This document shows positions 16,125 to 62,238 of a DNA stretch of 64,000 nt, piece after piece. Both the position numbers and the translations under genes were made by a program. Under the pieces are notes generated by a model. It was not told the origin of the DNA. It was given only the letters and a program-made list of their open reading frames with translations, and searched no databases. This DNA comes from a virus: positions 1 through 64,000 of IMG/VR virus record IMGVR_UViG_3300042988_000510; one strand, given 5' to 3'. Position 1 is the first letter of the stretch. Every line of letters starts with the position of its first letter.

Positions 16125-16150
16125 TCGTGACAGCACAATAAGGGTAATCT
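16125..16150 (+). promoter_or_regulatory. Late-motif site a
   Basis: TCGTGACAGCACAATAAGGG starts at 16125, 42 nt before the ATG at 16167; AAAGG follows as ribosome site. It is one of eight related sites before late genes; the right half is the most diverged. Confidence 0.55.
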
Positions 16151-16166
16151 CCCCAAAGGTGCGCCC

Positions 16167-19100
16167 ATGTTCACACCCGCCGATCTCCGCTTTCCCCTCC
16201 TGCTGATCAAGTCCAAGAAGCTGTCTGATCAGCCTGGCATGGTCCTGATGGGTAATCCGCCCCGCTGGCACCAGATCAATCCTGGCGACGAGGCACCAAA
16301 GGACGTTCACCACGCCCTGTACAAGAAAGGCGAGATCGCATCCGCGAAAAAACTTTCCAAAGACCCGGAGTTCACCAAACTCCATCCAGACGAGCAGGTC
16401 AAGAAAGTCCAGGAGCACGCCAAGGCGGTTCAGGACAAGAACACAGCCAGTTCCAAGGCCGCCACGTTTATCAAGAAGGTGATAAGCGGTCAGCCGCCAC
16501 AGGCCGCCGAATGGAAGCACTGGATTGCGCAAAGCCGGGAAAAGCGTGCGGAGGATATTGCCAAGTTTGAGGCCGACCCGCAGGTCAAAGCCTACTGGGA
16601 TCAGGCGGTATCGACCTTCAAGGCCAAGGCGGCGGCCAACATCGAGCGGCATAAGGCCGAGGACAATCAGTCGGACAAACCGGAGCCGGTGAAAGCCGCT
16701 GAACCCCAGAAGGAGCGGGCAGTTGATGCGGACAAAAAGGCGGACACGGTTGAACCGGTCAAGGCAAAAGAGTCAGGGATCAAACCGCTGGATCACGGCG
16801 AACTGAATGTTCCCGGCAAGACCAACAAGATCAACGCGGAACTGGATAAGTACAAGGCGCAGCAGGCCAAGCAGGCCAAAGCCGACCAAAAGTCGGCGAC
16901 CGTTGACAAAAAAGCCAACAAGGCCAAGGCCAAGGAATTATTTGCCGAGCACGGTCAGGCCATGATCGACCGGTACAGCAAGAAGTTCGGTAAAAAAGAA
17001 ACGACCGACATGCTGGACGATCTGGTCAAGTGGCAGTCGACCAAGTTCATCCTCATGGTTGATAAGTACCTGAAGGAACTAGAGGCGGAAAAGGCTGAAT
17101 CAAAACAAGAGCCCGTTGCTGAGCCGGAAAAGGCCGAAGTCAAGCCAGAACCCGTCGCGGAATCCAAGCCGGCATCTGAGTCCGACGACGACTACGATGC
17201 CAAAATCCAGGAATACGCCACGGGCGCGACCTACAAGCAAAAAGCCTACAAGCTGCTATCGCAAGACCCCGAATGGCTAAAGCTGTCCGGCAAGCCCAAG
17301 TTCGACGTATTGCACGCCAAGTACCTGGAGTTGCAGTCAGCCGCATCCCTGTCCGGAGCTATGGCCAAGTTTAAAACGGCGCTGTTGTCCGGCAAGGCGC
17401 CAACCAAAGCACTGGTCGAGAAGTTCAACTCACTGAGTAAGGAAGACCAGGCCAAGGTGCTCAAGCCGGTGTTCGAGCAGAAGGACAAGGCCGAGATTGG
17501 GAATCTTCTGGAGCAGTCAGGGGCCAAGCCGGTGGAAAAACCCAAAGCGGACAAGCCCAAACACACCTTCAAGATCAAGCCGCATGAGGGCGGATTCAAG
17601 CTCGAAAGCGATAACGGTGGTGGCTTTGTCGCCAACAAACCCAAAGGGGGCATGAGCCTGTTTGGTTTGCCGCCCAAGGTGTTCAAGACCGAAGCCGATG
17701 CCCAAGCCTATCTCGACAAGAAGGGTATGACGATGGATGCGGGAGAAAGCCCCAAGGTCGACGACAGTCCCAAGGATGGCGATACCAAACAGGGCGCCGA
17801 TGGCCTGCTGGTGTTCAAGAATGGGCGCTGGCACAAGCAGGGTGAGCCGGAAAAGGCTGGCGGCGACAAGGTCTACCTCAATGTGCCGTTCCAGAAAAAG
17901 GACTTTGCCAAGCAGGCCGGCGCCAAGTGGGATTCCGTAAAAAAGCTGTGGTATGCGCCAGAAGCCAAGCAAGGCATGGCTACCGATTACGGGGTGAAGA
18001 TCAATCCCGGATTGACTCAGTTTATTCCCAAGGAAGTTGGACTGGTCAACCAAAAAGGCAACATCAACGCATCGGCGCTGGCGGAAAACCTGGCTATGTC
18101 CAGTGGCGAGCCGCATGAAATTCATGCAGCCAAAAACCCAAAGACCGGAGCCATGGGCTATTACGTAGCCAAGACAGATGGCACGCCGGCTGAAACCGGT
18201 TACGACGTGCTGGGCAACTGGGAAAAGCAGGGGCCTGTGGACGGGGACGGAATCAAGCAGTCAAAGGCTGAAACCAAAAAAACCGAGGGCGAGAAGTACA
18301 AGGACGAGTTGGTTAATGCGGCCAAGACGGGTGATGGTGCGATCCCGTTGCCAAAAGGCGTGCTGGCTAAAAAGCCGGTTGGGCTGAAGGGCATCGCTGG
18401 GGTTATGGTCGAACAGATCGAGAACGCCCACAGCGTGGGTGATCAGGATGCGCTTAAAAACATCAAAGCGAACCTGTTCACGCCGGCCGATTCCACTGGC
18501 AAGATCATTTATTCCGGCACCAATAAAAAGGCTGTCGAGGCGTATCTGGATGCGGCGATTGAGGACTTGAGCGGCGAGAAAAAGCTCACCAAAAAAGCCG
18601 TGGAGGCGTTGGCCTATGAGTTGGGTAAAAAGGCGCATGCGGCGGGCTATGCGGTGCCGGTTTTCGATCCGGAACTGATGAACCTGATCAAGCAACTACC
18701 CGAGTATGGGTCTGTATCCAAGGCGGCGTACAAGGCGTGGCAGAAGGGTAGGATTGAGGCCATGGCTGCCGCACCGATTCCTGGATGGTCCGAGGACGAG
18801 AATGCCGCCTTCCAGCAGGCTGTTAATGGCAAGCAACCGGCTGAGCCACAGACCGAAATCCACCACGGCGCGGCCTGGGTTGCGGCACTGGCTGAGGGCA
18901 AGAAGCCTGACAATGACACCGACAATGCGGTCGTCATAATGCCGGAGGAGCGGCAACAGGAACTGTTCACCAAAGCCGCTACCCTATGGGCCAAGGGCCA
19001 GAAACTGGATGCTGATGAGCACGGCGTGGCGTTGGGCAAGGTGGTGCTGAGCGATGTCATGAATGACCGCGAGCATCAGGAAGGCGACACCAAGACCGTC

Positions 19101-22100
19101 AACGGTGTCACCTATATCCTGCAAGGCGGTCGCTGGCATCGGCAGACCCCGAAAACCAAGGGTGAGGGTACGCCGGCACAGAAGTTGGCAGCTCTGCAGT
19201 CGCTGGATACGCAGGCGCTATTTCATAATATAACAAACGGTCAAGCTAGCCAGAAAACTGATCGTCACCTGGACGCTATGGGTCCGGACGCCAAGGCTAC
19301 TTTTTACAGCATGATGTCTGACTACGAAACAAAGTGGTCAGTAATTTACAAAAAAGGCGCTATCGCGGCAGCCGTTGGGCACCCGAATGAGGTTCTGACA
19401 AAAACAGGTCAATGGGTTCCGTTTGATCCTGATATGTCTGCGGCAGCAACACCTCCAGGTATAGTTTTCTGGCAAAAGGCGCTGGAGGAAGCCACTCTAG
19501 CCGCCAAAGATGAGCCCAGCAGTGGCCCGGAGAACCCCGACACGCCGCAATCGTTCGGGCATGGCACGGTGACCTTTACCGGGGCGCAAAAGCTCCACGA
19601 TTTACTGTCAAGCAAGGGCTGGGACGTGGCCGGCGGCCCGCATCACCAGATCAAATTTTTGAGTAGCAAATCCATTCAGGATTGGAGCGTGAGCCCGGCC
19701 GGCTGGATCGATGACAAGGCCGTCTGGCAAAAGAGCCAGTGGTACCTGAAGGACATGTTCCCGGCAGGCGCGGTTGTGGATGTTGCCGATACGAAGTGGG
19801 TCATCGAGCACAGCGCCAAAAGCCTGGATTTCGTCAATCAGCAGACCGGGCAGAAACAGTCGTTCAGCAAGAAGGAGCAGGTCGAGGATTTGCTGAACAC
19901 GCTTTGGCACAAGAACCCCACGATCATTCCGCCCGGGCATCCGGCCGGCAAGAAGATTCGCGACGAGGCGGCCGATCAGGTGGCGGTGGATTCTCCGACC
20001 ATTGAGCACAACGCCCTGTTGTTCAAAAAGGTGAATGGCGCTTGGAAATATAACTTCAACGACGCTGGACCCTGGTATGACATGCCGGACAGTTACCTGA
20101 GCGAGCACGGCAGCGCACTGGAATCCAAGCTGGCAGCGGCGCAGGGCACATCAACCGAACCCGCCGGACCCAAGATCATCTCCGGCAAGGAATTGATTGA
20201 TGAGTCCATGCCTGAGCAAACCAAGAATGCGCTCCTGACCGCTCAGTACAAGCAGGAGGATGGTCAGTGGTTTGTAATGAACTCCGGGTTTGCCGACTTT
20301 GGAAATTGGGTGCCTATTGATCCAAATGGCGCGTTCCTGAAACAGCACGGCGCAAAACTGAACAAGCTGGCGGGCATTATCGAGGAATCACCCGTCATCA
20401 CCTTAACCCTCCCGCATATTGGTGACGTCAACTACAAGAAGGTCGATGGCATCTGGATGACTGAAGACCAAAAGGGCAATCCCGACGCCGGCTGGCACAA
20501 GATCAACCAGGACGGGGTGATGGTCGCGGATTTGGAGCAAAAGCTCAAGGAAGTGCAGGGCGGCGGCTACGACCTGATGCAGCACCCGAAGGTCATGGGC
20601 TTTATCCAATCTATAGGTAATGGCATCAAGCCATCCGCTGGCGACAAGGCATTCGTTGACGCAGAGACCGTTGGCGAGTCCTACGACAAGGTGTTTACGG
20701 CTGCATCTGAGGCGTATGCCAAGAATCATGGTCTGGACCCGAGCGATGAGTCCGACAAGATGCTGGCTGAGGCGATTTCGCTTGATCTGTTGCTGAACCT
20801 TGGACACCCGCAAGAGGGCGACACCAAGACGGAAAACGGCATCACCTACCAGTTGATCAACGGTCGCTGGCATCGTGTGACGCCGAAGGATGAGGATGTC
20901 ATCACCGACTTGCCCGGCTACGAAGGAGCCAAGTTCAAGAAAAAAGGCGAAGAGTGGGTGTACCAGACAGCTAGTGGCGCTTGGGCGCCCGTCATAAACG
21001 GGAGCCAGATCGATAAGCTCGATGCCCACGCGGCCCCCAAGCCCAAGGCAAGCCCGATTGATGCGGTCAACATCGATGAGGGGTACAAGACCCACGCCAA
21101 AGCCGCAGACAAGATCGAGGCTGGCCTGAATGCGCTGAAGGAAAAGGCCAAAGCCGAGGGTATCAGCGCATGGAAGGGCGTCATCTCTATCAGCAAGGTC
21201 AAGGGCACCATCACGGTCAATTTGCCGGTCAGTGAGTACCAGATGCTGAAGCTGAAAATCATGCAGTACCATCTGGATGACCCGAGCACGACCAACAAGC
21301 CCTGGCTGGTCAATCTGGTCAAAGGCGTGATGGATATGAAAGTCGCCACCAAACTGGCATCCGGCAAAAAGCCCAAGAAACCAAAGAAGGTCGCGCCCAA
21401 GGAAACCAGCAGTGCTCCTGGGCTGTCGTCCAAGACCGAGTCGATTGACGACTGGAAGCAGATCGGCGGTCAGGGTGGTTACAACCCGGGCGGAACCTAT
21501 CGGGACGCCAACGGTGATGACTGGTATTGCAAGTTCCCTGATGGGGGTGAGCACAACGTCAAGAACGAGTTACTGGCGGTCAGTCTGTACAAGGCGGCCG
21601 GTCTGTTTGTGCCTGACGTCAAGTTGGTCACGCAAAACGGCAAGATCGGTTTGGCCAGCAAGATTGTCCAGGGAGCCAAGGAGGATAAGTCGTGGCTGAA
21701 AAACGGCGGTGGACCCGGTGTACTGGAAGGTTTCGCTATCGACGCCTGGCTGGCGAACTGGGACACGGTGGGCAATAACCCCGCCGAGGGTAAGGGGTTC
21801 GATAACATCCTCAAGATGCCCGACGGATCGGCGGTCAGAATCGATGCGGGCGGGGCCTTGCTGTATGGCGGGGCTGGCAGCCTCAAGGGCGAGAAGTTTG
21901 GGGATGTGGCCGACGAGATCGAGTCGCTTCGCAACCCAGGCACCAACCCGAATACCGCTCAGGTGTTTGGGAAGATGAGCGAGGCAGATATCAAGTCCAG
22001 CGTCATGACTCTTGCACAGCTTGATGACGGAAAAATCCAGGGACTGGTAATGCAGTATGGGCCTGGGGACTACTCCGAAAAGAAAAAACTCTATGAGAAG

Positions 22101-23234
22101 TTAGTTGCTCGCAAGAACAGCATTGTTAGCAAATTCCCGGATGTTCAATCAGAACTCCTGAAAAAGAAACTGGCCAAGTTTAATTGGAGCGGCATCAGCA
22201 CGCCACCCAACTTCCTAAACTGGGGTGATTCCGGAAAGCCGGGGCCGGCAACGTTACTGCAGAAGAATGAGGCAAATCAGGAGGGAGTCAACAAACTGTA
22301 CGAGGTTGCCAAGACCGGCAACATATCAGCCATCAGGAACCTGGATTTTCCGCTCTATGACAGTGGGGGGACCGTTACTGGTTACGCCAAAGCGTTGGAC
22401 CATCCGTCCCAGTACGTGAAGGGTTATGCCCAACAGGTCATCAACGAAATCAATTACCAGCTTAACCCGCCGGTCAAATTCAGGTTCACCGAAGGGCATC
22501 CGCTGGCGGCGCTGGACTCGGCGTTCCCGACAGCCAAGGTTGGAGAACATCCGCACAAGGTTGGCAAGTTCCTCGATTTGGGCGCACCGGGCGAGGTTGG
22601 TGTTGAAGATCTGGGACTGCCGGAAAAAGTCACTTACAAGGGCGGTAAACTCTCGACCTCAACGTATGCGTCGACGGCCAAGGCATTGGTCACCAAAATG
22701 CCCAAGTATCAGTTGCAGGCAGTGCAGTCTTATACCGGGTCGGGCTATCAGGAGATGAACAACGGCCTATGGAAAGGGAACCCCTCCGGTGCAGCCAAGA
22801 GTGCGGCCGAAGCACTACACACTTTGTCGCATGAGGTGACTCCAGGGACTATTCTGTCCAGAAAAATCGGCGTGCATGGCTCCGACCTTGAACAGCTTGT
22901 CGGGGCACTGGCAGGCGGCAAGGGCCAAGGCATGGTGGGTCATGTCCTGCAGGAGCCGGCCATCATGTCGACCAGTATCGACCCTGATGTCTGGAGCGGG
23001 AATGTTCACATTAAGATGAACATCGGCCCAGGCGTCAAAGGGCTTTATGTCGGGCCTGGGTCAGACCCAAACGGCGGCGCTGTCTCGTCACACGCCAGTG
23101 AAAAAGAACTGCTTTTGCCGCCAAACACCCGCATGATAGTGAACAAGATCAAAAAATCCGGCAGCGATGCGGATGGGTTTGGCCATGGGTCGGAGTACAT
23201 TATTGAGGTGACCGTCCTGCCGACGCAGGAATAG
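16167..23234 (+). CDS. Giant multidomain 'polyvalent' protein with ADP-ribosyltransferase and kinase-like domains
   Basis: 2355 aa. The N-terminal 500 residues are Lys/Glu-rich coiled coil. A DUF5710-type module (YLNVPFQKKDFAKQAGAKWD, then LWYAPE) lies near residues 567-612. Short NGRWHR repeats recur near 32, 553, 987 and 1566, preceded by GDTK...NG, and look like linkers between modules. A kinase-like/HipA-like domain spans about 1757-1994 (WYCKFP, NWDTVGNN, DNILKMPDG, RIDAGGALLY). The C-terminus is an R-S-E class ADP-ribosyltransferase: SRKIG near 2232, STS at 2268-2270 and E2312-K-E2314. Phage polyvalent proteins are known to be packaged and injected; that this one is injected is inference. 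Preceded by late-motif site a. Confidence 0.8.
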   Translation: MFTPADLRFPLLLIKSKKLSDQPGMVLMGNPPRWHQINPGDEAPKDVHHALYKKGEIASAKKLSKDPEFTKLHPDEQVKKVQEHAKAVQDKNTASSKAATFIKKVISGQPPQAAEWKHWIAQSREKRAEDIAKFEADPQVKAYWDQAVSTFKAKAAANIERHKAEDNQSDKPEPVKAAEPQKERAVDADKKADTVEPVKAKESGIKPLDHGELNVPGKTNKINAELDKYKAQQAKQAKADQKSATVDKKANKAKAKELFAEHGQAMIDRYSKKFGKKETTDMLDDLVKWQSTKFILMVDKYLKELEAEKAESKQEPVAEPEKAEVKPEPVAESKPASESDDDYDAKIQEYATGATYKQKAYKLLSQDPEWLKLSGKPKFDVLHAKYLELQSAASLSGAMAKFKTALLSGKAPTKALVEKFNSLSKEDQAKVLKPVFEQKDKAEIGNLLEQSGAKPVEKPKADKPKHTFKIKPHEGGFKLESDNGGGFVANKPKGGMSLFGLPPKVFKTEADAQAYLDKKGMTMDAGESPKVDDSPKDGDTKQGADGLLVFKNGRWHKQGEPEKAGGDKVYLNVPFQKKDFAKQAGAKWDSVKKLWYAPEAKQGMATDYGVKINPGLTQFIPKEVGLVNQKGNINASALAENLAMSSGEPHEIHAAKNPKTGAMGYYVAKTDGTPAETGYDVLGNWEKQGPVDGDGIKQSKAETKKTEGEKYKDELVNAAKTGDGAIPLPKGVLAKKPVGLKGIAGVMVEQIENAHSVGDQDALKNIKANLFTPADSTGKIIYSGTNKKAVEAYLDAAIEDLSGEKKLTKKAVEALAYELGKKAHAAGYAVPVFDPELMNLIKQLPEYGSVSKAAYKAWQKGRIEAMAAAPIPGWSEDENAAFQQAVNGKQPAEPQTEIHHGAAWVAALAEGKKPDNDTDNAVVIMPEERQQELFTKAATLWAKGQKLDADEHGVALGKVVLSDVMNDREHQEGDTKTVNGVTYILQGGRWHRQTPKTKGEGTPAQKLAALQSLDTQALFHNITNGQASQKTDRHLDAMGPDAKATFYSMMSDYETKWSVIYKKGAIAAAVGHPNEVLTKTGQWVPFDPDMSAAATPPGIVFWQKALEEATLAAKDEPSSGPENPDTPQSFGHGTVTFTGAQKLHDLLSSKGWDVAGGPHHQIKFLSSKSIQDWSVSPAGWIDDKAVWQKSQWYLKDMFPAGAVVDVADTKWVIEHSAKSLDFVNQQTGQKQSFSKKEQVEDLLNTLWHKNPTIIPPGHPAGKKIRDEAADQVAVDSPTIEHNALLFKKVNGAWKYNFNDAGPWYDMPDSYLSEHGSALESKLAAAQGTSTEPAGPKIISGKELIDESMPEQTKNALLTAQYKQEDGQWFVMNSGFADFGNWVPIDPNGAFLKQHGAKLNKLAGIIEESPVITLTLPHIGDVNYKKVDGIWMTEDQKGNPDAGWHKINQDGVMVADLEQKLKEVQGGGYDLMQHPKVMGFIQSIGNGIKPSAGDKAFVDAETVGESYDKVFTAASEAYAKNHGLDPSDESDKMLAEAISLDLLLNLGHPQEGDTKTENGITYQLINGRWHRVTPKDEDVITDLPGYEGAKFKKKGEEWVYQTASGAWAPVINGSQIDKLDAHAAPKPKASPIDAVNIDEGYKTHAKAADKIEAGLNALKEKAKAEGISAWKGVISISKVKGTITVNLPVSEYQMLKLKIMQYHLDDPSTTNKPWLVNLVKGVMDMKVATKLASGKKPKKPKKVAPKETSSAPGLSSKTESIDDWKQIGGQGGYNPGGTYRDANGDDWYCKFPDGGEHNVKNELLAVSLYKAAGLFVPDVKLVTQNGKIGLASKIVQGAKEDKSWLKNGGGPGVLEGFAIDAWLANWDTVGNNPAEGKGFDNILKMPDGSAVRIDAGGALLYGGAGSLKGEKFGDVADEIESLRNPGTNPNTAQVFGKMSEADIKSSVMTLAQLDDGKIQGLVMQYGPGDYSEKKKLYEKLVARKNSIVSKFPDVQSELLKKKLAKFNWSGISTPPNFLNWGDSGKPGPATLLQKNEANQEGVNKLYEVAKTGNISAIRNLDFPLYDSGGTVTGYAKALDHPSQYVKGYAQQVINEINYQLNPPVKFRFTEGHPLAALDSAFPTAKVGEHPHKVGKFLDLGAPGEVGVEDLGLPEKVTYKGGKLSTSTYASTAKALVTKMPKYQLQAVQSYTGSGYQEMNNGLWKGNPSGAAKSAAEALHTLSHEVTPGTILSRKIGVHGSDLEQLVGALAGGKGQGMVGHVLQEPAIMSTSIDPDVWSGNVHIKMNIGPGVKGLYVGPGSDPNGGAVSSHASEKELLLPPNTRMIVNKIKKSGSDADGFGHGSEYIIEVTVLPTQE

Positions 23235-23246
23235 CTGTGCTATTAT
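23230..23246 (+). promoter_or_regulatory. Extended -10 promoter with operator
   Basis: The perfect palindrome AATAGC-TGT-GCTATT (23230-23244) overlaps both the stop codon of the giant gene and an extended -10, TGC-TATTAT (23238-23246). A TTGACA follows at 23247, but no -10 fits it before the ATG. Confidence 0.6.
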
Positions 23247-23268
23247 TGACATACAGAGGTTAGAGATC

Positions 23269-26081: not shown

Positions 26082-26100
26082 GTTTTTCTATTCTTTCTGG

Positions 26101-26116
26101 TACAATAGCACTGCTA
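26101..26116 (+). promoter_or_regulatory. Extended -10 promoter fused to operator
   Basis: TGG-TACAAT (26098-26106) shares its final T with the perfect operator TAGC-ACT-GCTA (26106-26116). AAAGGAG follows before the ATG at 26140. Same -10 sequence as the bet promoter. Confidence 0.65.
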
Positions 26117-26139
26117 GTTAACTGGAAAGGAGATGAACT

Positions 26140-26475: not shown

Positions 26476-26522
26476 GACCTTGTGGCCAGTGCGGTTTCTG
26501 TGTTGGCCATCCTGTCTTGTGG

Positions 26523-26541
26523 TAAAATACCAGCAAAGCTA
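26523..26541 (+). promoter_or_regulatory. dnaN operon promoter with operator
   Basis: Extended -10 TGG-TAAAAT (26520-26528), then CAGC-AAA-GCTA (26531-26541, one mismatch). The ATG at 26548 is only about 20 nt beyond the -10, so the leader is very short and no Shine-Dalgarno sequence is seen. Confidence 0.55.
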
Positions 26542-26547
26542 TTCATC

Positions 26548-27651
26548 ATGATCATTACGGCAACACGCGAAACCCTGCTTGGCCCGCTGACGGCGGCCAT
26601 GCCGGCGGTCAAGAAATCGACCCTACCGATCCTCAGCAACATGCTGCTGGACGCGCAGGCCGATGGCTTGCACATAACGGCCACCGATCTGGACACGCAG
26701 ATTCGGTGCATGGTGGATGTCACCACTGAGCAACTGGGTGGTGTCACTCTGCCTGCTCGCAAGCTGCTGGACATCGTCAAACTGGCGCCAGCGGGCTCGA
26801 CCATCAAACTGGCTACTGCCGATCTGGGCAAGCTCCGGGTGCAGGCGGGACCGTCGCGGTACACGCTGGCCACGTTGCCAGTTGAGAACTTCCCATCGTT
26901 CGACCCGGGCGACATCATGCAGACGCTGGAGTTGCCGGCCGATGTCCTGTTGAAGGCGTTCAAGCGGGTGTCCTTCTGCGCGGCGGTCAACGACGTGCGC
27001 TACTTCCTCAACGGGGTGGCGATTCGGCTGTTGGCGCATGAACTCGAGACGGCGGCCAGTGACGGTCATCGGCTGGCCGTGATGCAAACCCCATTGGCCG
27101 AACCGCCGGATGTCCCGAGCGACAGGCACCGCATCCTGCCCCGTGATTCGGTGCTGGCCATGATGAAGTTCCTGGCTGATGCCAAGACGGGCGCGGTCAA
27201 GCTCCAGATCGGGGACCGCACTGCGAGTATCACCATCAGTGATCAGCAGTTCTCGACCCGGCTGGTTGAGGGCGCTTATCCCAACATTCAGCGGGTCATA
27301 CCCAAGGACACCACGACGCACTTCATCGTGCCTGTGGCCGATATGCTGGCGTCGATTGCCAGGGCCGGCGTCGTCAGGGAGGGCAAGGACAACCCCATCC
27401 AGGTAGCCATCGAGCAGGACTCCCTGACCATCGAGGCGGCCAATGCTGCAGGCGATGATGCGCGGGAGGTGCTGCCAATCAATCTGGATGGCACTCCACT
27501 GACGTTGGGCTTCAACGGCAGCTATCTGGCCGAGTCGCTGGGTCAAGTCGATGCCGATACCGCCGAGTTCAAACTGCGGGATAACTCCGGGCTGGTGCTG
27601 GACCCCAGTGAGCCGGGGTGGCTGTCGGTTGTCATGCCGATGCGGTTATGA
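26548..27651 (+). CDS. dnaN: DNA polymerase III beta sliding clamp (DnaN)
   Basis: 367 aa, full clamp length. Three clamp domains are evident: LGPLTAAMPAVKKSTLPILS (domain 1), FPSFDPGDIMQTLELPADVL and YFLNGVAIRL (domain 2), FSTRLVEGAYPNIQRVIP (domain 3). The C-terminal VVMPMRL is identical in style to host clamps of gamma/betaproteobacteria and forms the partner-binding pocket. A complete bacterial-type clamp in a phage is uncommon. I start at 26548 (MIITATRETLL); the frame runs open further upstream across the operator. ATGA overlap with the next gene. Confidence 0.93.
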   Translation: MIITATRETLLGPLTAAMPAVKKSTLPILSNMLLDAQADGLHITATDLDTQIRCMVDVTTEQLGGVTLPARKLLDIVKLAPAGSTIKLATADLGKLRVQAGPSRYTLATLPVENFPSFDPGDIMQTLELPADVLLKAFKRVSFCAAVNDVRYFLNGVAIRLLAHELETAASDGHRLAVMQTPLAEPPDVPSDRHRILPRDSVLAMMKFLADAKTGAVKLQIGDRTASITISDQQFSTRLVEGAYPNIQRVIPKDTTTHFIVPVADMLASIARAGVVREGKDNPIQVAIEQDSLTIEAANAAGDDAREVLPINLDGTPLTLGFNGSYLAESLGQVDADTAEFKLRDNSGLVLDPSEPGWLSVVMPMRL

Positions 27652-32261: not shown

Positions 32262-32278
32262 CTGAATGACTCAGGCCG

Positions 32279-32519: not shown

Positions 32520-32529
32520 AACCAATGCC

Positions 32530-32605
32530 GCCGGGCTCGTTCAAACGGTAGGACGTCGCATCCGTAATGCGAATGTTGGGGGTTCGACTCCCTCGCCTGG
32601 CTCCA
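32530..32605 (+). tRNA. tRNA-Thr (anticodon CGT)
   Basis: 76 nt with encoded CCA. Acceptor GCCGGGC/GCCTGGC pairs over 7 bp with one GU. D arm GTTC/GGAC has the standard GG in the loop. The anticodon stem TCGCA/TGCGA is perfect, loop TCCGTAA; T arm GGGGG-TTCGACT-CCCTC. The anticodon CGT reads ACG (Thr); the body resembles E. coli tRNA-Thr(CGU). Position 33, normally U, is C. The discriminator base is T. It could supplement codon use or be an attachment-site remnant. Confidence 0.85.
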
Positions 32606-32608
32606 ACT

Positions 32609-32632
32609 TCGTGACGACATACTGACCAAAAC
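32609..32632 (+). promoter_or_regulatory. Late-motif site b
   Basis: TCGTGACGACATACTGACC, 4 nt after the tRNA CCA end and 40 nt before the portal ATG; TAGGG serves as ribosome site. Confidence 0.55.
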
Positions 32633-35732: not shown

Positions 35733-35753
35733 TCGTGATGCCATCATGATTCC
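35733..35753 (+). promoter_or_regulatory. Late-motif site c
   Basis: TCGTGATGCCATCATGATTC begins exactly 21 nt before the ATG at 35754, with no Shine-Dalgarno sequence between. It is back-to-back with the leftward operator promoter. Confidence 0.5.
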
Positions 35754-39839: not shown

Positions 39840-39865
39840 GCCCGGCTTCGGTCGGGCTTTTTTTT
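39840..39865 (+). terminator. Rho-independent terminator
   Basis: GCCCG (39840-39844), 8-nt loop, CGGGC (39853-39857), then eight T. It ends the methylase cassette; late-motif site d follows 14 nt later. Confidence 0.85.
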
Positions 39866-39878: not shown

Positions 39879-39899
39879 TCGTGACGCCACCATGGCGGC
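39879..39899 (+). promoter_or_regulatory. Late-motif site d
   Basis: TCGTGACGCCACCATGGCGG begins 21 nt before ATG 39900, directly after a terminator. No Shine-Dalgarno sequence; TGACGCCA-CCA-TGGCGGCA is a near palindrome. Confidence 0.55.
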
Positions 39900-40799
39900 A
39901 TGAATGATGAAGCCTTGCTTGCGCACATCCCTGAGCACTTTGCGTTTAACGCACTACTGAAGGCCACGCCTCATGAGGAGAATGGCGGCCGGTTCATTTA
40001 CGTCGAGGCCAGCAAGGAATCCCGCGACCAGCAGGGCGAGATTGTCCTGGCTAAGGCGCTGCAGGAGTCGGTCGACGTATTTATGAAGTTTGGTGTGGTC
40101 GATCTTGACCACAAGTCCATGCCATCCGTGGCCAGGCAGTACGGCATCGAGCATCCGGACGAATGGATCATCGGGCAGCCGAAGCAGGTTAGTTTCGATG
40201 GTGGCACCACCTTCGTCAAGGCGCAGCTACGGCAGGGTGAATCCGTGCTCGCTAACCGCGCCAACCGAGTTTGGGAAGGGCTCACCAAGCTCAACCCGCC
40301 AGACCGCTATTACGCATCCGTTGGTGGATCGGTACTGGCGAAAAGCGTGGAGATTGATCCACTCACGAAAGCCAGGACCCCGGTCATCACCAAGACTCGC
40401 TGGGACAACCTGGCGCTGTCGCTTTCTCCTGTGCATCCGGACCTGAGCCCGGCAACCACCATCCCTGTCGGCACGTTCGCCAAGTCGCTTGGCGGCTTTG
40501 TGCTCTCGAAAACCCTGACGGCTGGTTATGGCACCGACTCGGCTGTATTGGCCGGTGGCGCTGCTCTCCGGCTGCAATCCCTGCACGGATCACCCCTCTC
40601 CTATCTCGACTTTCATCGTGAGCTATCTACCGCGCTGAAAAGTCGTGACAGCAAGCTAGACGGCAACGAGCACCCGCTCAAATCTCGACTTGTCGGTTGG
40701 GCAGAGTCCATCGGCGTGGAGGGTAATCAGGCGGTGTCATGGGTGCATCGGTTTTTGTTCGACGCGGCCAAAGATTTGAAAACTCGGAGATCACGATGA
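39900..40799 (+). CDS. Putative prohead protease
   Basis: 299 aa. RFIYVEASKESRDQQGEIVL, FGVVDLDHKSMPSVARQYGI and YYASVGGS fit the phage capsid maturation protease role, with His in the DLDH segment as a candidate catalytic residue. It sits directly before a scaffold-like gene and the capsid gene, the usual order. Residues about 208-226 (AGYGTDSAVLAGGAALRLQS) repeat a segment near the capsid N-terminus. The protease class is not proven. Confidence 0.65.
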   Translation: MNDEALLAHIPEHFAFNALLKATPHEENGGRFIYVEASKESRDQQGEIVLAKALQESVDVFMKFGVVDLDHKSMPSVARQYGIEHPDEWIIGQPKQVSFDGGTTFVKAQLRQGESVLANRANRVWEGLTKLNPPDRYYASVGGSVLAKSVEIDPLTKARTPVITKTRWDNLALSLSPVHPDLSPATTIPVGTFAKSLGGFVLSKTLTAGYGTDSAVLAGGAALRLQSLHGSPLSYLDFHRELSTALKSRDSKLDGNEHPLKSRLVGWAESIGVEGNQAVSWVHRFLFDAAKDLKTRRSR

Positions 40800-43995: not shown

Positions 43996-44020
43996 TCGTG
44001 ACGGCAAACTGAAGCCATCG
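43996..44020 (+). promoter_or_regulatory. Late-motif site e
   Basis: TCGTGACGGCAAACTGAAGC, 42 nt before ATG 44038; CGGAG ribosome site in between. Directly after a terminator, which argues for promoter function. Confidence 0.6.
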
Positions 44021-46178: not shown

Positions 46179-46183
46179 GTGCT

Positions 46184-46667: not shown

Positions 46668-46668
46668 C

Positions 46669-46935: not shown

Positions 46936-46944
46936 GTTTGAACC

Positions 46945-48036: not shown

Positions 48037-48038
48037 TG

Positions 48039-48066
48039 TCGTGACGGCAGACTGATGGCGTCACCT
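48039..48066 (+). promoter_or_regulatory. Late-motif site f
   Basis: TCGTGACGGCAGACTGATGG, 44 nt before ATG 48083, with CTGGAG as ribosome site. GTGACGGCA and TGGCGTCAC form a near palindrome here. Confidence 0.55.
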
Positions 48067-48082
48067 CTCTGGAGCATGCCTG

Positions 48083-50400: not shown

Positions 50401-50402
50401 CC

Positions 50403-52171: not shown

Positions 52172-52232
52172 GCATGACGCATCACCGCATCGTTAGCCCT
52201 TATTGCCAATCACTTTTCTCCGTGAGGAATCC

Positions 52233-55184: not shown

Positions 55185-55630
55185 TGAGTTCCTTCATCAA
55201 TATGTTGGCAAACGATATTTGGTCCGAGCAGGACATCACTAACCGCACCGAAGCCATGGTCCGCGCTGTCATGCCCCTGCAAGATGAGTTGGTCCTGAAC
55301 CGCAAGGTCCAAGGCGCGGCGCTGGGCCAGTACGAACTGACCGCACAGGATCAGACCGACATGGGGCGACTGGCGCAAGCCGGGTTTAGCGCCCAGCAGG
55401 AAGGGATCGCCGCTCGGGCTGACATGACCCTGTTGCTTCATGTCTTTGAGGTGGAGGCTGCGATAACGCGGCTGGACCGGCCGGAGGTTGCTCCCGAGGA
55501 CGAGACCTATGAGGCCGATCAGGCTGAAAGGACCGAGGCGATGGGGGTAGTCAGTGGGGCATCGGAAGAAGTGTTGATCTGGGTCGAAGCCAGAAGACCA
55601 CCCGTTGAGTCCATTCAAGACGCGGAGTAA
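55184..55630 (+). CDS. Small fibre-cluster protein, possible assembly factor, 148 aa
   Basis: Helical: MSSFINMLANDIWSEQDITN, LAQAGFSAQQEGIAARADMT, acidic C-terminus. Placed between two large fibre genes with TAATG overlap, so a fibre chaperone or connector is plausible but not shown. Confidence 0.55.
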   Translation: MSSFINMLANDIWSEQDITNRTEAMVRAVMPLQDELVLNRKVQGAALGQYELTAQDQTDMGRLAQAGFSAQQEGIAARADMTLLLHVFEVEAAITRLDRPEVAPEDETYEADQAERTEAMGVVSGASEEVLIWVEARRPPVESIQDAE

Positions 55631-55633
55631 TTC

Positions 55634-58600
55634 ATGTCCCTCGACAGCGAAGTCCAAGCCCTGACGAGTGCCGCAATCGATCTGTTTGATGCGGTCACCG
55701 ACACGAAGGCTATAGCAGAAGAGGCAGTCTCCCAGGCGACATCCCAGGCGGTATTGGCAGACCAAAGCGCGGAAGCCGCCCTTGCAGTCAAGCAAGACCT
55801 GGAGGCAAACTGGTCTGACAAGCTGCTACAGGCAGCAAGTGAGGCGGCCCTGGCGACGCAAAAGGCTTCTGAAGCTCAAGGCTTTGCTGCTACCGCAGAG
55901 GCCAGTGCCGCGCTTGCGATGACCGTGGCGACTCCCACGGCGGATACCGTCAGTGCTCTCAGGGAGTTAGCTGACCCGCTTGCTGTTCGGGTCATAACGG
56001 TTTTTGGGTTCGGCGCTTCGGGTGATGGTGGCGGTGGCTTCTGGCGCTACGATCCGGCGTCCAGTGACGCGGACAATGGCGGCACGGTAGTCAAGCCGAC
56101 AGCGATAGCCAGTAACGATCCTGGCCGATGGCTCAGGGTTTTCAGCGGCAATGTCGATTTGGCGTGGTTCGGTGCCGTTCGTGACGGGGTGACGGACGAT
56201 TACGCGGCATGGGTAGCGGCCAACTCAGCCGCGTCTGATCTTGGGGTTGGTATTGCGCTGACTTCGGGTGACAGTGCCATAAAGCAGGCGATCACCCTGA
56301 CCGTGCCCGTACATTTCACTGAGGGCGCCAAGATCGTGCCTTACCCGACGTGGGATGTGTCTGGGGCAACCACGTGGTCGGATACTGTAACCTATGCCAA
56401 GGACGACATTGTTCTTTACCGGGGCGAATACTACAAATCGGTAATCAATAACAATTTATCCACCATCACGGATTTGATCCCGCGCAGGTCAAATATAAGC
56501 CCGGAAGGTGGTAATACGGCATACTGGACTCGCCATGTGACGCTGACCCTATCTGCTGGGTACTATGCCGGCGACTATCAGCACGTATTCAATACCACCA
56601 CCGGTGGCGGGATAGTTATAACCACAGGCAGGTTTTCTGATAGTAGCGTACTATCCCCTGCTCACTGGGGTGCGAAGGTTGGTGGGCTTGTCGATTGCAC
56701 ACTGGCCTTGCAGTCGTGTTTTAACTCGGTCAAATATGCTTCAGAGCAGGCGTTCAATCCGGTCACGGTAGCCGGCATGTCGAACATGGGGGGTAATGTA
56801 TTTATTCCCCAGGGCGTGTGGCGGATGACCGCAGGCGCCGTGATGTGGTCTGGCACTGTGGTGAATGGCGTCGGGAAGGGGTCCGTATTAAGGCTGGATG
56901 ATAACGTCGATGACGTTATTATGCTGCAGATGGGGTGTGGCACTTTCGTTGGGGGAAACACCTCCGCTAACTACAGTGTCTTTACTAGCGTAAATCGCCT
57001 TGCATTTGTGGGGCTGGGCGCCAGGACTCAAGCGGTTGGCCTGCATCCGCAGACCGGACTGTTTGGTGGCGTGTATAAGGACCTGTATTTCTGCACGCGG
57101 TACGGGTTCAGAATGGTGAATGTCCAGTACACGCAATCTTCTGTTTTCGATAACATCCAGACGTTCGGTAACTTAACCAACCAAAATATAGGTTATGTCG
57201 ACCAGATTTTACGGCTGCAAGGCAATACCAACGTAATCAAAAATCTTGCCAAGGAAATTGGCACCGGCAATTCGTTCGATCCGTATGTGTTGGTGACCGG
57301 TCCTTCGGTGGGCGTGGTGCATACCACGTCTGACGGCACGCTTGGGACGTGGAAGCAGAACGACGAACTGAGCCACATGCACATGTTCGGCGGGGCTTAC
57401 GGGAACGGCAAACGGGTGTTGGTGGGTGATGCCGGGATGTGCCGGGTCAGTGAGGATTCGGAGGTCACCGAGTATCTCAAGGACGCTCACACGTCGGCGC
57501 TCTGGTCTGTTGCGTACAACGGGACCGATACATGGGTCGCCGTGGGTGAACAAGGGGCCATGGCGTATTGCCGTGACTCTGCGCTGGCGCCCGATGTATA
57601 CCGGTCAGGCGGATTCATGGGGTATATCGCCGGTACGACATTGACAGTGACGCGAGCGGGTGTCGCTTTAATCGTGGCGGGTCATAGTTTGTTCCCTGAT
57701 CACGGAATTCTTCCTGGCACTTACATCGTGAGCCAGCTAGGCGGCACCGCCGGCGGGGTCGGCACTTATGAGGTCAGCCGGTCGCAGACGGTCGGTGCGT
57801 CTGGCAGTGTGTACTATATGACGGCCGATTCTTGGGTGCCCCTGCCGTATCTCACAAAATCGAAACTCAAAAGCGTTTGTTATGGCGGTGGGTTGTGGGT
57901 CGCAGTCGGGTTCCGCTACTCCCCGACCGGGAATTACACGGAAATCCTCACAAGTCCTGACGGCGCGACGTGGACGGACGTTGCCAACACCCTGACGTTC
58001 AATGCTCGGGGCGCCTGTTATGGCAACGGATTGTTCGTCATCGTGGGTGATAGCGGGAAAATCGCCACTTCTACGGACGGTGCAACCTGGACACTGCAAA
58101 CGTCAGGGGTATCAACCAAACTCAACGGCGTGGCCTATCACGACAATACCTATATGGCGGTTGGCGCCTCGGGTGCGGTGCTGGCATCCACGGACGGAAT
58201 AACATGGACGGCTCGCACATCCAACACTACGGCGGAACTGTACGACGCCACCTACTCCGGTTCGCTCTGGCTGGTTTGCGGGTATCCAAACAAAATCACC
58301 ATCAGCCCGGACGGGGTAACATGGACAGCTTATGACGGTGGCGCTGGTTACGTGCCCTTGGGTCCCAGCGTGTTCTACACGGTCGTGTGGGACGGCGCAC
58401 AATTTGTGCTTGGCTCATCCGCAAACGGTGATCCAGTACCAAACGATGTTATTAACACGACTATATCGGGAGCAGGCGGCAATCAGTTTGAGCATATTTT
58501 GTTTGAGCAGGTTTGCAGTCGCAATAAAAGCCTATTGACCCTGGAATATGCTCGCAAGACTCGCATCAAGGGTATTTGGTTTGAAGCGGCGGGTGTATCC

Positions 58601-59596
58601 AGGTATTTTGAGTTGCTAAGCACCACTAGCGTGGACGTGGACCAGTTCAATACTGTGATCGGCACGGCTTCCAGGACTCTCAAGATCAGCGGCCTCAGCA
58701 GTCTGTACGTGAATGGTTCGGTTGATCTGATTTTTGATAAGGTCAATAAAGACCCCTCGGCAGAAATGGGGGCGCTGGAGACCACATCCGGTGACCTTTT
58801 TGCCGATACATATCCCAACGGGCGCAGTGGTGAGAGCATCACTACCTTGCGGTCGCCCACACTTCAGGGAAGTACGCAGTACCGGGCCTTGACGAGGCAG
58901 GAGAACCAGCGGAACGGCGGGCAGATCATGGTCAACACCAATTTCGCCCATAATGGCTGGGGTTGGAATATAACCGGGACACAACCGACTCCGGTTTATT
59001 CTGCTTCATCGCAAGGCGCTGGTAAGGTGATGTCGCTTGTGTGGGAAACTGGCGGGGGCGTTACCTGGCGTCAGCGCATTACCGTAGGCGCAGAGATGGT
59101 GGGTACGCCGGTCACTGTGCAGGTTTCCGGCAACATTCTCGACTACCAGTTGGCCAGCACTGCGGCGGCAATAATCCCTTACATCAATGGGGCCGGCATA
59201 TCGTCCACAAACAACGTCAGCCAAATCACAGGCAAGCGGGGCTGGTGTACCAACAGCCTGACCGCATATATCGGAGCAGCGGGGACGTTGGACGTTGGCT
59301 TTGTCATCTTCGGAAGTGCCGGAGTGACCACCCTGATATCAGATTGCACCGCGTCTTTTGGCAATGCCGCTGCCACAGCTTCACCGATAGTGGGGTGCCT
59401 GGAACTCTCCAGCGTAAATCCAGCCACCGGAATACTCACGCTCAACTCCGCCTCGATTCTGGCTGGGTCGGGATCGCCCGAGGGTGTGGTGACGGCGCCT
59501 GCGGGGTCCTTGTACCTTTGCACGGACGGGGGTGTGGGTGGCTCGATTTTCGTGAAGGAGTCTGGGACCGGCAACACGGGCTGGACAGCGAAGTAG
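55634..59596 (+). CDS. Tailspike with pectate-lyase-like and beta-propeller repeats, 1320 aa
   Basis: N-terminal coiled coil (MSLDSEVQALTSAAIDLFDA), then WFGAVRDGVTDDYAAW at about residue 176, the opening signature of pectate-lyase-like tailspikes. Residues about 575-920 contain BNR/kelch-like repeats with Asp-box style SPDGATWT / STDGATWT / STDGITWT / SPDGVTWT. A beta-rich C-terminus follows. Probable polysaccharide-binding or degrading adsorption protein; catalytic residues not identified. Confidence 0.75.
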   Translation: MSLDSEVQALTSAAIDLFDAVTDTKAIAEEAVSQATSQAVLADQSAEAALAVKQDLEANWSDKLLQAASEAALATQKASEAQGFAATAEASAALAMTVATPTADTVSALRELADPLAVRVITVFGFGASGDGGGGFWRYDPASSDADNGGTVVKPTAIASNDPGRWLRVFSGNVDLAWFGAVRDGVTDDYAAWVAANSAASDLGVGIALTSGDSAIKQAITLTVPVHFTEGAKIVPYPTWDVSGATTWSDTVTYAKDDIVLYRGEYYKSVINNNLSTITDLIPRRSNISPEGGNTAYWTRHVTLTLSAGYYAGDYQHVFNTTTGGGIVITTGRFSDSSVLSPAHWGAKVGGLVDCTLALQSCFNSVKYASEQAFNPVTVAGMSNMGGNVFIPQGVWRMTAGAVMWSGTVVNGVGKGSVLRLDDNVDDVIMLQMGCGTFVGGNTSANYSVFTSVNRLAFVGLGARTQAVGLHPQTGLFGGVYKDLYFCTRYGFRMVNVQYTQSSVFDNIQTFGNLTNQNIGYVDQILRLQGNTNVIKNLAKEIGTGNSFDPYVLVTGPSVGVVHTTSDGTLGTWKQNDELSHMHMFGGAYGNGKRVLVGDAGMCRVSEDSEVTEYLKDAHTSALWSVAYNGTDTWVAVGEQGAMAYCRDSALAPDVYRSGGFMGYIAGTTLTVTRAGVALIVAGHSLFPDHGILPGTYIVSQLGGTAGGVGTYEVSRSQTVGASGSVYYMTADSWVPLPYLTKSKLKSVCYGGGLWVAVGFRYSPTGNYTEILTSPDGATWTDVANTLTFNARGACYGNGLFVIVGDSGKIATSTDGATWTLQTSGVSTKLNGVAYHDNTYMAVGASGAVLASTDGITWTARTSNTTAELYDATYSGSLWLVCGYPNKITISPDGVTWTAYDGGAGYVPLGPSVFYTVVWDGAQFVLGSSANGDPVPNDVINTTISGAGGNQFEHILFEQVCSRNKSLLTLEYARKTRIKGIWFEAAGVSRYFELLSTTSVDVDQFNTVIGTASRTLKISGLSSLYVNGSVDLIFDKVNKDPSAEMGALETTSGDLFADTYPNGRSGESITTLRSPTLQGSTQYRALTRQENQRNGGQIMVNTNFAHNGWGWNITGTQPTPVYSASSQGAGKVMSLVWETGGGVTWRQRITVGAEMVGTPVTVQVSGNILDYQLASTAAAIIPYINGAGISSTNNVSQITGKRGWCTNSLTAYIGAAGTLDVGFVIFGSAGVTTLISDCTASFGNAAATASPIVGCLELSSVNPATGILTLNSASILAGSGSPEGVVTAPAGSLYLCTDGGVGGSIFVKESGTGNTGWTAK

Positions 59597-59614
59597 GGGC
59601 GCGATTGATCTAAG

Positions 59615-59640
59615 TCGTGACCTCACAATGGGGTCATTCC
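59615..59640 (+). promoter_or_regulatory. Late-motif site g
   Basis: TCGTGACCTCACAATGGGGT, 41 nt before ATG 59656, with TGAGGATG as ribosome site. TGACCTCA-CAA-TGGGGTCA is a near-perfect palindrome. Confidence 0.55.
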
Positions 59641-59655
59641 ATCTGAGGATGACCC

Positions 59656-60723
59656 ATGTCTTTTCTTTACCCCGCCACCGATAACCTCATTACCGTCACG
59701 CTGGAGCGTGATGGCGCGGCCTATCCGATTCCATCTGGCGCTGCCGTGACCGCAGCGTTTTACAGTTTGGATGGTGTGCAGTTGCTGACCGACCTGGTTG
59801 CTGGCACGTCAACGACCAACCAGGCCGACTGGCCTCATGGCGTGGCTGCATTCGAGTTCGGCGCCGACCAGACATCCGGCATAACTGCAACCAACGTCCA
59901 GCTTCGTGTGTTCGTGCTCGTCAACGGACAAGAAGAGGAATGGACGGTCCTGTTTGAGTTGGCGCAGCCCGGGACCGAGAGCGCCCTGTTCCCTGAGCGA
60001 CTGACGGCGGTAGCCAGCCTGCAGGCGCAGCTTGCTGGCATGGGGTACACGGTGTCGGAGTCGGATGTCTGGTCGGCCATCAAGGCGGCCGAGGCTGATG
60101 CTCAACACAGGCTCCGCGTGTTTCTGCGACCGACATACGTCCTGCCGTTCCCGGTGCCATCTACCGATCTGGCGGCGGTCCCGGATGGTACGCCATGGGT
60201 TGAGGAGCCTGGCTACGATTACGAGCCCGACCTGTTTCAGGGTGAGGGCTGGGGGTATTTGGTCACCCGGCACAAGCCGATCCTGTCGGTCGACTACATC
60301 CAGTTCGCCTATCCGCAGCCGTTAAGCACTGTCTGGAACCTGCCCATGGAGTGGGTGCGGCTGGACAAGAAGTACGGCCACATCCGTATCGTGCCTGCGG
60401 GAACGTCCTACAGCGCCCCGTTCAGTGCTTGGATGATGCAGGTTCTCGGCGGTGGGCGGAACATTCCGCAGATGATTCGGGTGCGTTACCGGGCCGGGCT
60501 GGAAAATGCCGCTATGCAATATCCCGATCTGGTGGATGCCGTCAAGAAAATGGCGATCCTGCGCATGGTTGAGACGCAGATGCCGGGCACGTCCGAGTCC
60601 ATCTCAGCAGATGGCTTGAGCCAGTCGAAGTCTTTGGACCTCAATCAGTACCGGGATGCTATCAAGTCCAAGCTCGACGCGGTGTCCGAGTCCATCCATG
60701 GCATCAAACTGATGGTGATGTGA
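59656..60723 (+). CDS. Head-tail connector-like protein, 355 aa
   Basis: N-terminal 115 residues are a beta domain (ITVTLERDGAAYPIPSGAAV). Residues 120-355 contain SDVWSAIKAAEADAQHRLRV, YIQFAYPQPLSTVWNLPMEW and IRVRYRAGLEN, as in head-tail adaptor proteins that extend the portal. First gene of the connector block; TGATG overlap with the next. Confidence 0.65.
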   Translation: MSFLYPATDNLITVTLERDGAAYPIPSGAAVTAAFYSLDGVQLLTDLVAGTSTTNQADWPHGVAAFEFGADQTSGITATNVQLRVFVLVNGQEEEWTVLFELAQPGTESALFPERLTAVASLQAQLAGMGYTVSESDVWSAIKAAEADAQHRLRVFLRPTYVLPFPVPSTDLAAVPDGTPWVEEPGYDYEPDLFQGEGWGYLVTRHKPILSVDYIQFAYPQPLSTVWNLPMEWVRLDKKYGHIRIVPAGTSYSAPFSAWMMQVLGGGRNIPQMIRVRYRAGLENAAMQYPDLVDAVKKMAILRMVETQMPGTSESISADGLSQSKSLDLNQYRDAIKSKLDAVSESIHGIKLMVM

Positions 60724-61373
60724 TGCAGTTGGAGCCGGCCAAGTTCAACAGGTTGTTGAATGACCTGGGGCAGTCGTTCTCGCTGCGTCGGGCATCCGCG
60801 TGTCCGTGCATTGAGCTTGAGACCAATGCGCCGAAACCCAACTGCCCGCACTGTAAGGGTATCGGTTGGCTTTGGGGTGTGGCGGTCACTGGCACGTCCG
60901 GGATTGCCGCGCAGAAGATCCAGCGCGAGTGGGCCAACTTCGGGCTATGGCAGTCGGGTGATGTCGTGCTGACCATCCCCTCTGATTCACCCCTGTACGC
61001 CATGGGTCCGTATGACCGGGTGGTCATGCTTGACTCGACCGAGGCTTTCAGCTTCGTGCGGCGCCGGGGCATCGATGACACGCAACCGGTGGCCTGGGCC
61101 AGTCTGGAGCGCGTCTACTGGCTCGATGAAGACGAGGAGCAGGTGACCAGTACCTTGCCGGGCATTTCCGGTTCGACGCTGACCTGGGGCGATCCGGAGG
61201 TCGATGACGCGATTCCGGCCGCCGGCCAGCAATACTCTATCACCGGCCGCAAGCATCCCGAGTTCTACATGCTGCAGGAACTGACTCAGGACCGATCTCA
61301 TCATCACGGCCGGGACCTGCCTCGCCGAGTGGTGCTGCGCAAGCTCGATTTGTTGGGGCGGCGCGATGGCTGA
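60723..61373 (+). CDS. Head-completion/neck protein with zinc knuckle, 216 aa
   Basis: ACPCIELE and CPHCKGIGW near residues 27-50 give a four-Cys zinc site; the rest is beta-rich (DRVVMLDSTEAFSFVRRRGI). Order and size suit a head-closure or neck protein. Start ATG 60723 (TGATG overlap) or GTG 60720. Confidence 0.6.
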   Translation: MQLEPAKFNRLLNDLGQSFSLRRASACPCIELETNAPKPNCPHCKGIGWLWGVAVTGTSGIAAQKIQREWANFGLWQSGDVVLTIPSDSPLYAMGPYDRVVMLDSTEAFSFVRRRGIDDTQPVAWASLERVYWLDEDEEQVTSTLPGISGSTLTWGDPEVDDAIPAAGQQYSITGRKHPEFYMLQELTQDRSHHHGRDLPRRVVLRKLDLLGRRDG

Positions 61374-62205
61374 TTATCTGATCAAGGTCGATATGGGTGA
61401 CCTGGCTGCTGCGGGTCCCATCGATAAGACTGTGTTCCCGCATCTAAACCAGGCGGTGCAGTTCTACGTCAACCAGGCGCACGCCAGTTGGGTCGAGTCG
61501 ATCCGCACGGCACAGGGCGTCTGGAAAGGTGACAAGGAGCGCTACGAGGACAGCCTGCAATCGGTGATGCTCTCCGACTTTGCCGGGGAAGTCTGGACCG
61601 ATCTCAATCTGGCCGAGGACATTGACACCGGGCGGCCCGAGCGCGATCTCAAGAAGATGCTCGACACCTCGCTCAAGGTGCGGGTCAGTCAGAAAGGGTA
61701 TCGGTACCTGATCATTCCGTTCCGGCACAACATCCCGGGGAATGCCGCATGGAATCAGGCCATGCCCGGCAAGATTTACCTCATGGCCAAGAAGATGTCA
61801 CAGTCCAAGGTGACGGGTCAGATCATGCGGCCGACCGGGCAGGGCTCCAAGGGTCCGTTCCTGTCTGATCCCAAGACCAAGGGGCCGATGATGGTGCCCG
61901 GTCATTCCTACCAATGGGGCGACCGGCTGCCGGCTGGGTTGGCTCCGAAGCTGAAGGCATTTCATGCCACCGATCCGTTTGCCGGTATGGTGCGGATGGC
62001 GGCCAATTCCCCCAAGGCAAAGTCATCATCCTACATGACCTTCCGCGTCATGTCGGAAGCCCCGCAACAAGCCCGCAAGTGGCTGGTCGCACCTAAGCCC
62101 GGGCTGTTCCTGGCCAAGCAAATCGCGGCCAAGATCGAGAAACTGGCCGAGCAATCGTTTCAGTACGCAATCGAACAGGATTTCAAGCAGGCCGGGCTCG
62201 AGTAG
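61366..62205 (+). CDS. Neck/tail-completion protein, 279 aa
   Basis: WVESIRTAQGVWKGDKERYE, RVSQKGYRYLIIPFRHNIPG and QQARKWLVAPKPGLFLAKQI resemble structural proteins found between head-closure and sheath genes. Overlaps the previous gene by 8 nt. Function by synteny. Confidence 0.6.
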   Translation: MADYLIKVDMGDLAAAGPIDKTVFPHLNQAVQFYVNQAHASWVESIRTAQGVWKGDKERYEDSLQSVMLSDFAGEVWTDLNLAEDIDTGRPERDLKKMLDTSLKVRVSQKGYRYLIIPFRHNIPGNAAWNQAMPGKIYLMAKKMSQSKVTGQIMRPTGQGSKGPFLSDPKTKGPMMVPGHSYQWGDRLPAGLAPKLKAFHATDPFAGMVRMAANSPKAKSSSYMTFRVMSEAPQQARKWLVAPKPGLFLAKQIAAKIEKLAEQSFQYAIEQDFKQAGLE

Positions 62206-62217
62206 CCATCCAAATCG

Positions 62218-62238
62218 TCGTGACATCACCATGATGTC
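62218..62238 (+). promoter_or_regulatory. Late-motif site h, perfect palindrome
   Basis: TCGTGACATCACCATGATGT begins 21 nt before ATG 62239. TGACATCA-CCA-TGATGTCA is an exact palindrome of 8-bp arms. No Shine-Dalgarno sequence follows. Confidence 0.6.

Follow-up and report, generated by a model that had tools for sequence, protein, structure and literature searches.

A late-promoter-like motif dispersed through temperate myophage genomes and a candidate zinc-protein activator

The window analyzed here comprises bases 1–64,000 of a 90,100-base virus record. Its recurrent motif, TCGTGA[CT]NNCANN[AC]T, precedes genes for the portal, head protease, lysis, tail/baseplate, and a giant ADP-ribosyltransferase protein, in agreement with the original prediction that the motif lies upstream of late genes (Table 1). 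All eight sites listed in that prediction are exact matches on the plus strand, although the count was one too low: a ninth exact match, at 40643 within the protease gene, had been missed. The sequence of this ninth site recurs identically at L009:6964. Terminators had been reported directly before two sites; the one ahead of 39879 was confirmed, and one is visible in the sequence ahead of 43996. A tRNA-Thr gene (CGT anticodon, 32530–32605) ends 4 nt ahead of the portal site at 32609.

Table 1. Motif sites, candidate regulatory genes, and associated signals in the 64,000-nt window.
Feature	Sequence	Position	Strand	Context
sigma70-like promoter	TTGTCA-17-AAAAAT	14118..14146	+	upstream of zfA
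zfA		14179..14670	+	candidate activator, 163-aa zinc protein (CxxC...CxRC...CxSCYNRxRE..GxNxKG)
zfB		14655..14969	+	neighboring zinc-ribbon protein, probable partner; start codon uncertain
putative late promoter site	TCGTGACAGCACAAT	16125..16139	+	before 2355-aa ADP-ribosyltransferase giant protein, ORF 16167
putative late promoter site	TCGTGACGACATACT	32609..32623	+	before portal (32649), 4 nt past tRNA-Thr
putative late promoter site	TCGTGATGCCATCAT	35733..35747	+	predicted leaderless: ATG 35754, 6 nt past last T
intrinsic terminator		39840..39865	+	stem 39840–39857 plus T-run; insulates putative 39879 promoter
putative late promoter site	TCGTGACGCCACCAT	39879..39893	+	predicted leaderless head maturation protease (39900), terminator in front
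motif site	TCGTGACAGCAAGCT	40643..40657	+	within protease gene, upstream of ORF 40739 and major capsid gene
putative late promoter site	TCGTGACGGCAAACT	43996..44010	+	right after terminator hairpin, before 44038/endolysin genes
putative late promoter site	TCGTGACGGCAGACT	48039..48053	+	before virion structural gene 48083
putative late promoter site	TCGTGACCTCACAAT	59615..59629	+	before 59656 (PHROG 772, tail fiber family)
putative late promoter site	TCGTGACATCACCAT	62218..62232	+	predicted leaderless: ATG 62239, 6 nt past last T

The window holds nine copies of the strict motif and the 90.1-kb genome holds 10, the additional match being at 75882. Removal of the requirement for C at −12 (relaxed motif, TCGTGAYnnnAnnMT) adds sites at 66144 and 71989, both outside the window, so that a search of the rest of the genome, as the original prediction had proposed, extends the series to 12 sites, all on the plus strand and none on the minus strand. 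In simulated genomes, the relaxed motif has a mean count of 0.17 (Markov-3) or 0.38 (Markov-5) and a maximum of two, compared with the 12 observed. A de novo word count in this genome identified TCGTGA as the top hexamer 3 bp upstream of nAnnMT (12 of 31 occurrences, p = 1.2e-12). A terminator is also visible in the sequence before the 66144 site.

Among 173 non-redundant sites from this genome and its relatives, conservation is confined to −22 to about +4 (numbered from the predicted transcription start). No −35 signal was found across these sites: positions −23 to −66 are unconserved, and the motif thus lacks a −35 element because nothing is conserved upstream of −22. To avoid circularity, downstream base counts were made with only GTCGTGAC fixed. 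Under this constraint, 169 matches lie on the coding strand versus five on the opposite strand, and the downstream bases include A at −11 in 90%, A or C at −8 in 82%, and T at −7 in 89%. With A at −11 and T at −7, the right half of the motif, nAnnMT, appears to behave like the −10 element of a sigma70-family promoter. The −12 position is C in 58% of the sites, and no extended −10 was found in the 173 sites, as T at −12 is not the rule and TG is absent at −15/−14. The motif had been described as unlike sigma70 boxes, which is half right: the −35 is absent, but the right half resembles a −10 element. Its sequence is best read as a −10 promoter with (G)TCGTGAY, at −22 to −15, in the place of a −35. 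The suggestion that the motif is a late promoter or an activator site gains support from this −10-like architecture, the strand bias, and the late genes downstream. The palindromic character noted for several sites is incidental; it needs CAC at −12 to −10, yet C occurs at −10 in just 36% of the family. A palindromic binding site was rejected, as it would rest on non-conserved positions.

The usual distance from a −10 element to the transcription start is 6–7 nt. In 94 of the 173 sites, ATG begins 6–7 nt after the last T of the motif (ATG at +1 or +2), and the predicted transcription start would therefore coincide with the start codon and yield a leaderless mRNA. Sites of this type in the present genome are 35733, 39879, and 62218 in the window and 71989 outside. 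A leader with a Shine-Dalgarno-like sequence is found in 31 of the 75 sites with a more distant ATG. These patterns bear on the possibility that the motif is an RNA-level or DNA-modification signal (e.g., a translation enhancer, a methylation site, or a packaging site) rather than a promoter. Such a signal would suit the closeness of the motif to start codons and the methyltransferases encoded in these genomes. However, the distance to the codon is variable and the farther ATGs often have their own Shine-Dalgarno-like sequence, whereas the −10 pattern, the strict strand bias, and the upstream terminators suit a promoter, and we consider a non-promoter signal extremely unlikely.

An antiterminator loading site of the Q/AlpA type, with TCGTGAC as the binding element and CANNMT as a sigma pause element, would be in line with the ability of lambda Q to bind zinc. 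The AlpA element lies within its promoter, and the AlpA pause sequence, CACGAT (PMC9371919), resembles CANNMT. However, this arrangement would require a complete upstream promoter, whereas −23 to −66 are unconserved; moreover, the two elements are merely 2 bp apart, and genes that start at +1 leave no leader terminator to bypass. An antiterminator site is thus very unlikely.

In Aeromonas phage ST4 and loci L011–L015, the predicted start falls within a terminator-like hairpin. Read-through transcripts from upstream would form this hairpin, and the promoter's own transcript would not. Individual cases are at L067:3896, L011:3623, L013:8064, and L213:9790 (−); the ST4 case is L066:3896, on the minus strand of the record stretch. 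A T-run follows the hairpin in L011, L013, and the ST4 case, such that the promoter is nested in a terminator. A terminator of this kind would block read-through but spare the transcript of the nested promoter.

About 90 records of related phages retain the motif, which lies on the coding strand ahead of the same set of late genes. The original prediction had turned on its presence at the same loci in relatives, and it was found before the same orthologs. A near-identity search of phage records gave no match, and the relatives came from protein searches. A search with the major capsid protein recovered 49 viral contigs plus named phages, which include Bordetella PHB04, Aeromonas ST4, Pseudomonas Touem01 and Dolphis, Morganella Mecenats66, Yersinia fHe-Yen8-01, and Enterobacter phiT5282EW. 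Most large genomes have about 4–20 copies of the relaxed motif, almost always on one strand (e.g., 12 one-strand sites in Dolphis), compared with 0–1 and rarely two copies of a reversed-pattern control. In many relatives, the head protease gene and the 62239 ortholog have the motif 21–25 bp before their start codons, and a site of the 62218 type is at −21/−22 in many of the 62239 orthologs. Mecenats66 has only two relaxed matches, and one of these precedes its 62239 ortholog.

Variant forms of the motif are found in some clades. The AT-rich G025 clade (L178–L181) has TCGTGA[AG], often with T at −12 in the −10 box. In the G047 clade, the form in use at the same genes appears to be TCGGGAC; in L056/L018/L019, TCGGGAC replaces TCGTGAC before the same two genes, at 8297 and 14526, and the L056 record also has zfA. 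Canonical sites are few or absent in some zfA-bearing records, namely those of the TCGGGAC clade, G081, and G078. A comparison by eye of ZfA residues with the variant motif bases revealed no convincing covariation. These variants, TCGGGAC and TCGTGA[AG], provide natural tests of specificity.

For the factor that reads the motif, the original prediction saw no polymerase or sigma factor in the window and pointed to a search for such a gene or for a late activator. No sigma factor was found, and the window holds a candidate activator, ZfA. The Sigma70_r2 profile (PF04542) is absent from 17 genomes, with positive controls, and neither a sigma factor nor an RNA polymerase is among the Pfam and PHROG families listed for 91 further ORFs, in lists of at most 25 entries. 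A search for single-subunit T7-like RNA polymerases gave no hit, but the control for that family was silent. Although GTGAC resembles the SP6 promoter core, an SP6/T7-like reading was rejected on the basis of the spacing, the A/C at the would-be +1, and the lack of a detected polymerase (with the weak control). AraC/RhaS regulators, which are annotated in ST4 and Touem01, were rejected as the reader as they are not common to the other genomes. Similarly, T4-like clamp coupling was rejected as the clamp is not conserved among the relatives. The window encodes a DnaN-like sliding clamp (26482–27651), which had no BLAST match in four named relatives.

These searches bear on the hypothesis that the whole motif is read by an unrecognized phage sigma factor or RNA polymerase, similar to the −10-only mode of T4 gp55, with ZfA in another role. 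Minimal phage sigma factors typically act at promoters that have a −10 but no −35, and C at −12 is atypical of sigma70. However, the absence of Sigma70_r2 despite working controls, the absence of sigma and polymerase families from those listed for the 91 ORFs, and the lack of a BLAST match for the clamp in the four named relatives, by which a T4-style arrangement is not general, all argue against this hypothesis, and we regard it as unlikely.

Among five distant genomes compared, the non-structural genes shared are almost only those for a single-stranded DNA-binding protein (SSB) and the ZfA/ZfB pair. ZfA was found in 33 of 53 records, with most misses in fragments, and in essentially every large motif-bearing record; ZfB adjoins it in nearly all ZfA-bearing records. 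A ZfA-seeded search regained the same phage group, with the motif in 36 of 37 records, mostly as many one-strand copies, and the capsid gene in nearly all large records. This phage-wide co-occurrence of ZfA and the motif is confounded by common descent. ZfA and ZfB have no meaningful Pfam or PHROG match; in particular, neither matches Ogr/Delta in Pfam, and their cysteine spacing differs from CX2CX22CX4C. AlphaFold models of both proteins are confident (pLDDT 88–89). Compared with the PDB, the ZfA model has no significant fold match and resembles no known DNA-binding fold, and the ZfB model is ribbon-like with only a weak, non-significant similarity to Elf1. The ordinary sigma70-like promoter before zfA fits early synthesis of ZfA. 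Based on these patterns, ZfA is the best candidate for the motif reader and late switch.

Bacterial genomes also hold zfA within integrated elements. ZfB was not found beside zfA in 12 such loci (L202–L210 and L212–L214), and the motif persists in most of them, including L209 and L210; L202, L207, and L208 have zfA but no canonical motif within the 20-kb stretch. In four of the 12 loci, the motif lies 24–60 bp upstream of zfA, for which the expected total is below 0.01. The zfA ATG in L212 is exactly 6 nt past the motif (leaderless). Divergent motif pairs occur upstream of zfA in L212 (9834/9854) and L213 (9790/9891). In L203, L206, L208, L209, and L210, ZfA is fused to its own C-terminal CxxC-CxxC ribbon in the absence of ZfB, which is consistent with ZfA and ZfB acting together. 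L204 and L205 contain an integrase, and L205 also has a replication initiator. Structural genes of the main group were not found in the 20-kb element stretches, with the exception of L214, apparently a related prophage. There are few zfA-only elements, grouped in about two related pairs, and the evidence from them is thus strong without being many-fold independent. By analogy with P4, these satellite-like elements are candidate satellites.

The elements also bear on two other explanations. In the first, ZfB, the phage SSB, or another conserved protein would be the reader or an essential co-factor, with ZfA as an accessory. This would fit the adjacency and co-conservation of ZfB with ZfA and the retention of SSB in all five genomes. 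The SSB of phage N4 redirects the sigma70 holoenzyme to late promoters (PMC5312081). However, the motif persists in most zfA loci that lack ZfB, SSB proteins are not known to have 7-bp sequence specificity, and a principal role for ZfB or SSB seems improbable. In the second, the motif would be a site for a host alternative sigma factor or a host regulator, as might be expected from the lack of a detected phage sigma factor. However, the same element occurs in phages of Pseudomonas, Aeromonas, Bordetella, Enterobacter, and Yersinia, as well as beside zfA in elements of Burkholderiaceae and Oxalobacteraceae. To our knowledge, no single host regulator spans that host range, and there is very little to recommend this explanation.

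We consider it probable that the motif is a bipartite late promoter, in which a host sigma70-family factor reads the −10 and ZfA acts at the left half with the help of ZfB. The nAnnMT element would be opened by region 2 of a sigma70-family factor, for which the housekeeping sigma of the host is the simplest choice, and transcription would start 6–7 nt downstream, which at about half of the sites would be the A of the start codon. ZfA would bind (G)TCGTGAY (−22 to −15) and substitute for the missing −35, with the zinc-ribbon protein ZfB assisting. ZfA may thereby recruit or stabilize the host holoenzyme at promoters that are too weak alone, with C at −12 in most sites. This C is unusual for sigma70 and counts against the explanation. 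Both proteins would be made early from the ordinary sigma70 promoter and would then switch on about 12 late operons, several of which are insulated by terminators. More tentatively, with a confidence that falls a little short of even, ZfA may represent a new class of activator, characterized by a fold without known relatives, a 7–8 bp element abutting the −10, independence from a −35 with the host RNA polymerase of alpha-, beta-, and gammaproteobacteria, leaderless late mRNAs, and capture by satellite-like elements, in which the same promoter would drive the element's own copy of zfA, as with P4 Delta and P2.

Systems in which a phage late activator serves promoters dispersed over the genome are already known. 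Similar to P2 Ogr and P4 Delta, the proposed regulators are small phage zinc proteins that would serve several dispersed late operons in a temperate myophage. In addition, zfA is found in small integrated elements, much as the P4 satellite has a gene related to the activator of its P2 helper. However, ZfA differs from Ogr/Delta in having no hit to that Pfam family and a different cysteine pattern. The P2 element, TGT-N12-ACA, lies about 55 bp upstream. Whereas P2 late promoters carry this element (PMC3931495), the element described here is at −22 to −15, with no conserved TGT-N12-ACA near −55 and no conservation farther upstream. In Q/AlpA systems (PMC9371919), a phage-type factor binds within the promoter, close to the −10, where it encounters RNA polymerase with sigma bound, as proposed here for ZfA. 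However, those systems have an intact −35/−10, a pause element, and a terminator, none of which is conserved here. T4 late promoters (TATAAATA) are read by a sigma factor plus a sliding clamp. Those promoters (gp55/gp33/clamp) share with the present motif a −10-like element and the lack of a −35, but the present motif has an extra 7–8 bp element and a consensus other than TATAAATA, a sigma factor was not detected, and the clamp lacks conservation among the relatives. Middle and late promoters of Thermus phage P23-45 also lack a −35 and give leaderless transcripts. In that phage, phage proteins redirect the host RNA polymerase (PMC5312081), but the element, host, and regulators (gp39 and gp76) are different. 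The protein family, the element, and its position thus appear to be new.

This group consists of ~90-kb temperate myophages of many proteobacteria, for which we found no description of late-gene control in the literature. Likewise, literature on TCGTGA with late promoters and on the named phages yielded no description of the motif. The analysis provides a testable promoter rule and a candidate activator family without a known fold. If this reading is correct, promoter recognition would gain a further mode, in which an activator next to the −10 makes the −35 unnecessary and the start codon is often +1, and such an activator may also serve as a compact expression tool.

Other features of these phages are also of interest. 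Gene families of temperate phages, including an integrase, an H-NS-like domain, YdaS, and RecE/RecT-like, Mom-like, and QueD-like proteins, are present in L058/L059 and positions 1–16000 of the window. ZfB of Yersinia phage fHe-Yen8-01 (L215:4537–4881) is annotated as particle-associated; this protein may be packaged, and the annotation could imply another role for ZfB. Finally, the giant protein encoded by ORF 16167–23234 (2355 aa), under a putative late promoter, has a C-terminal ADP-ribosyltransferase domain, and relatives of ~1200 aa are found in ST4, Touem01, and Mecenats66.
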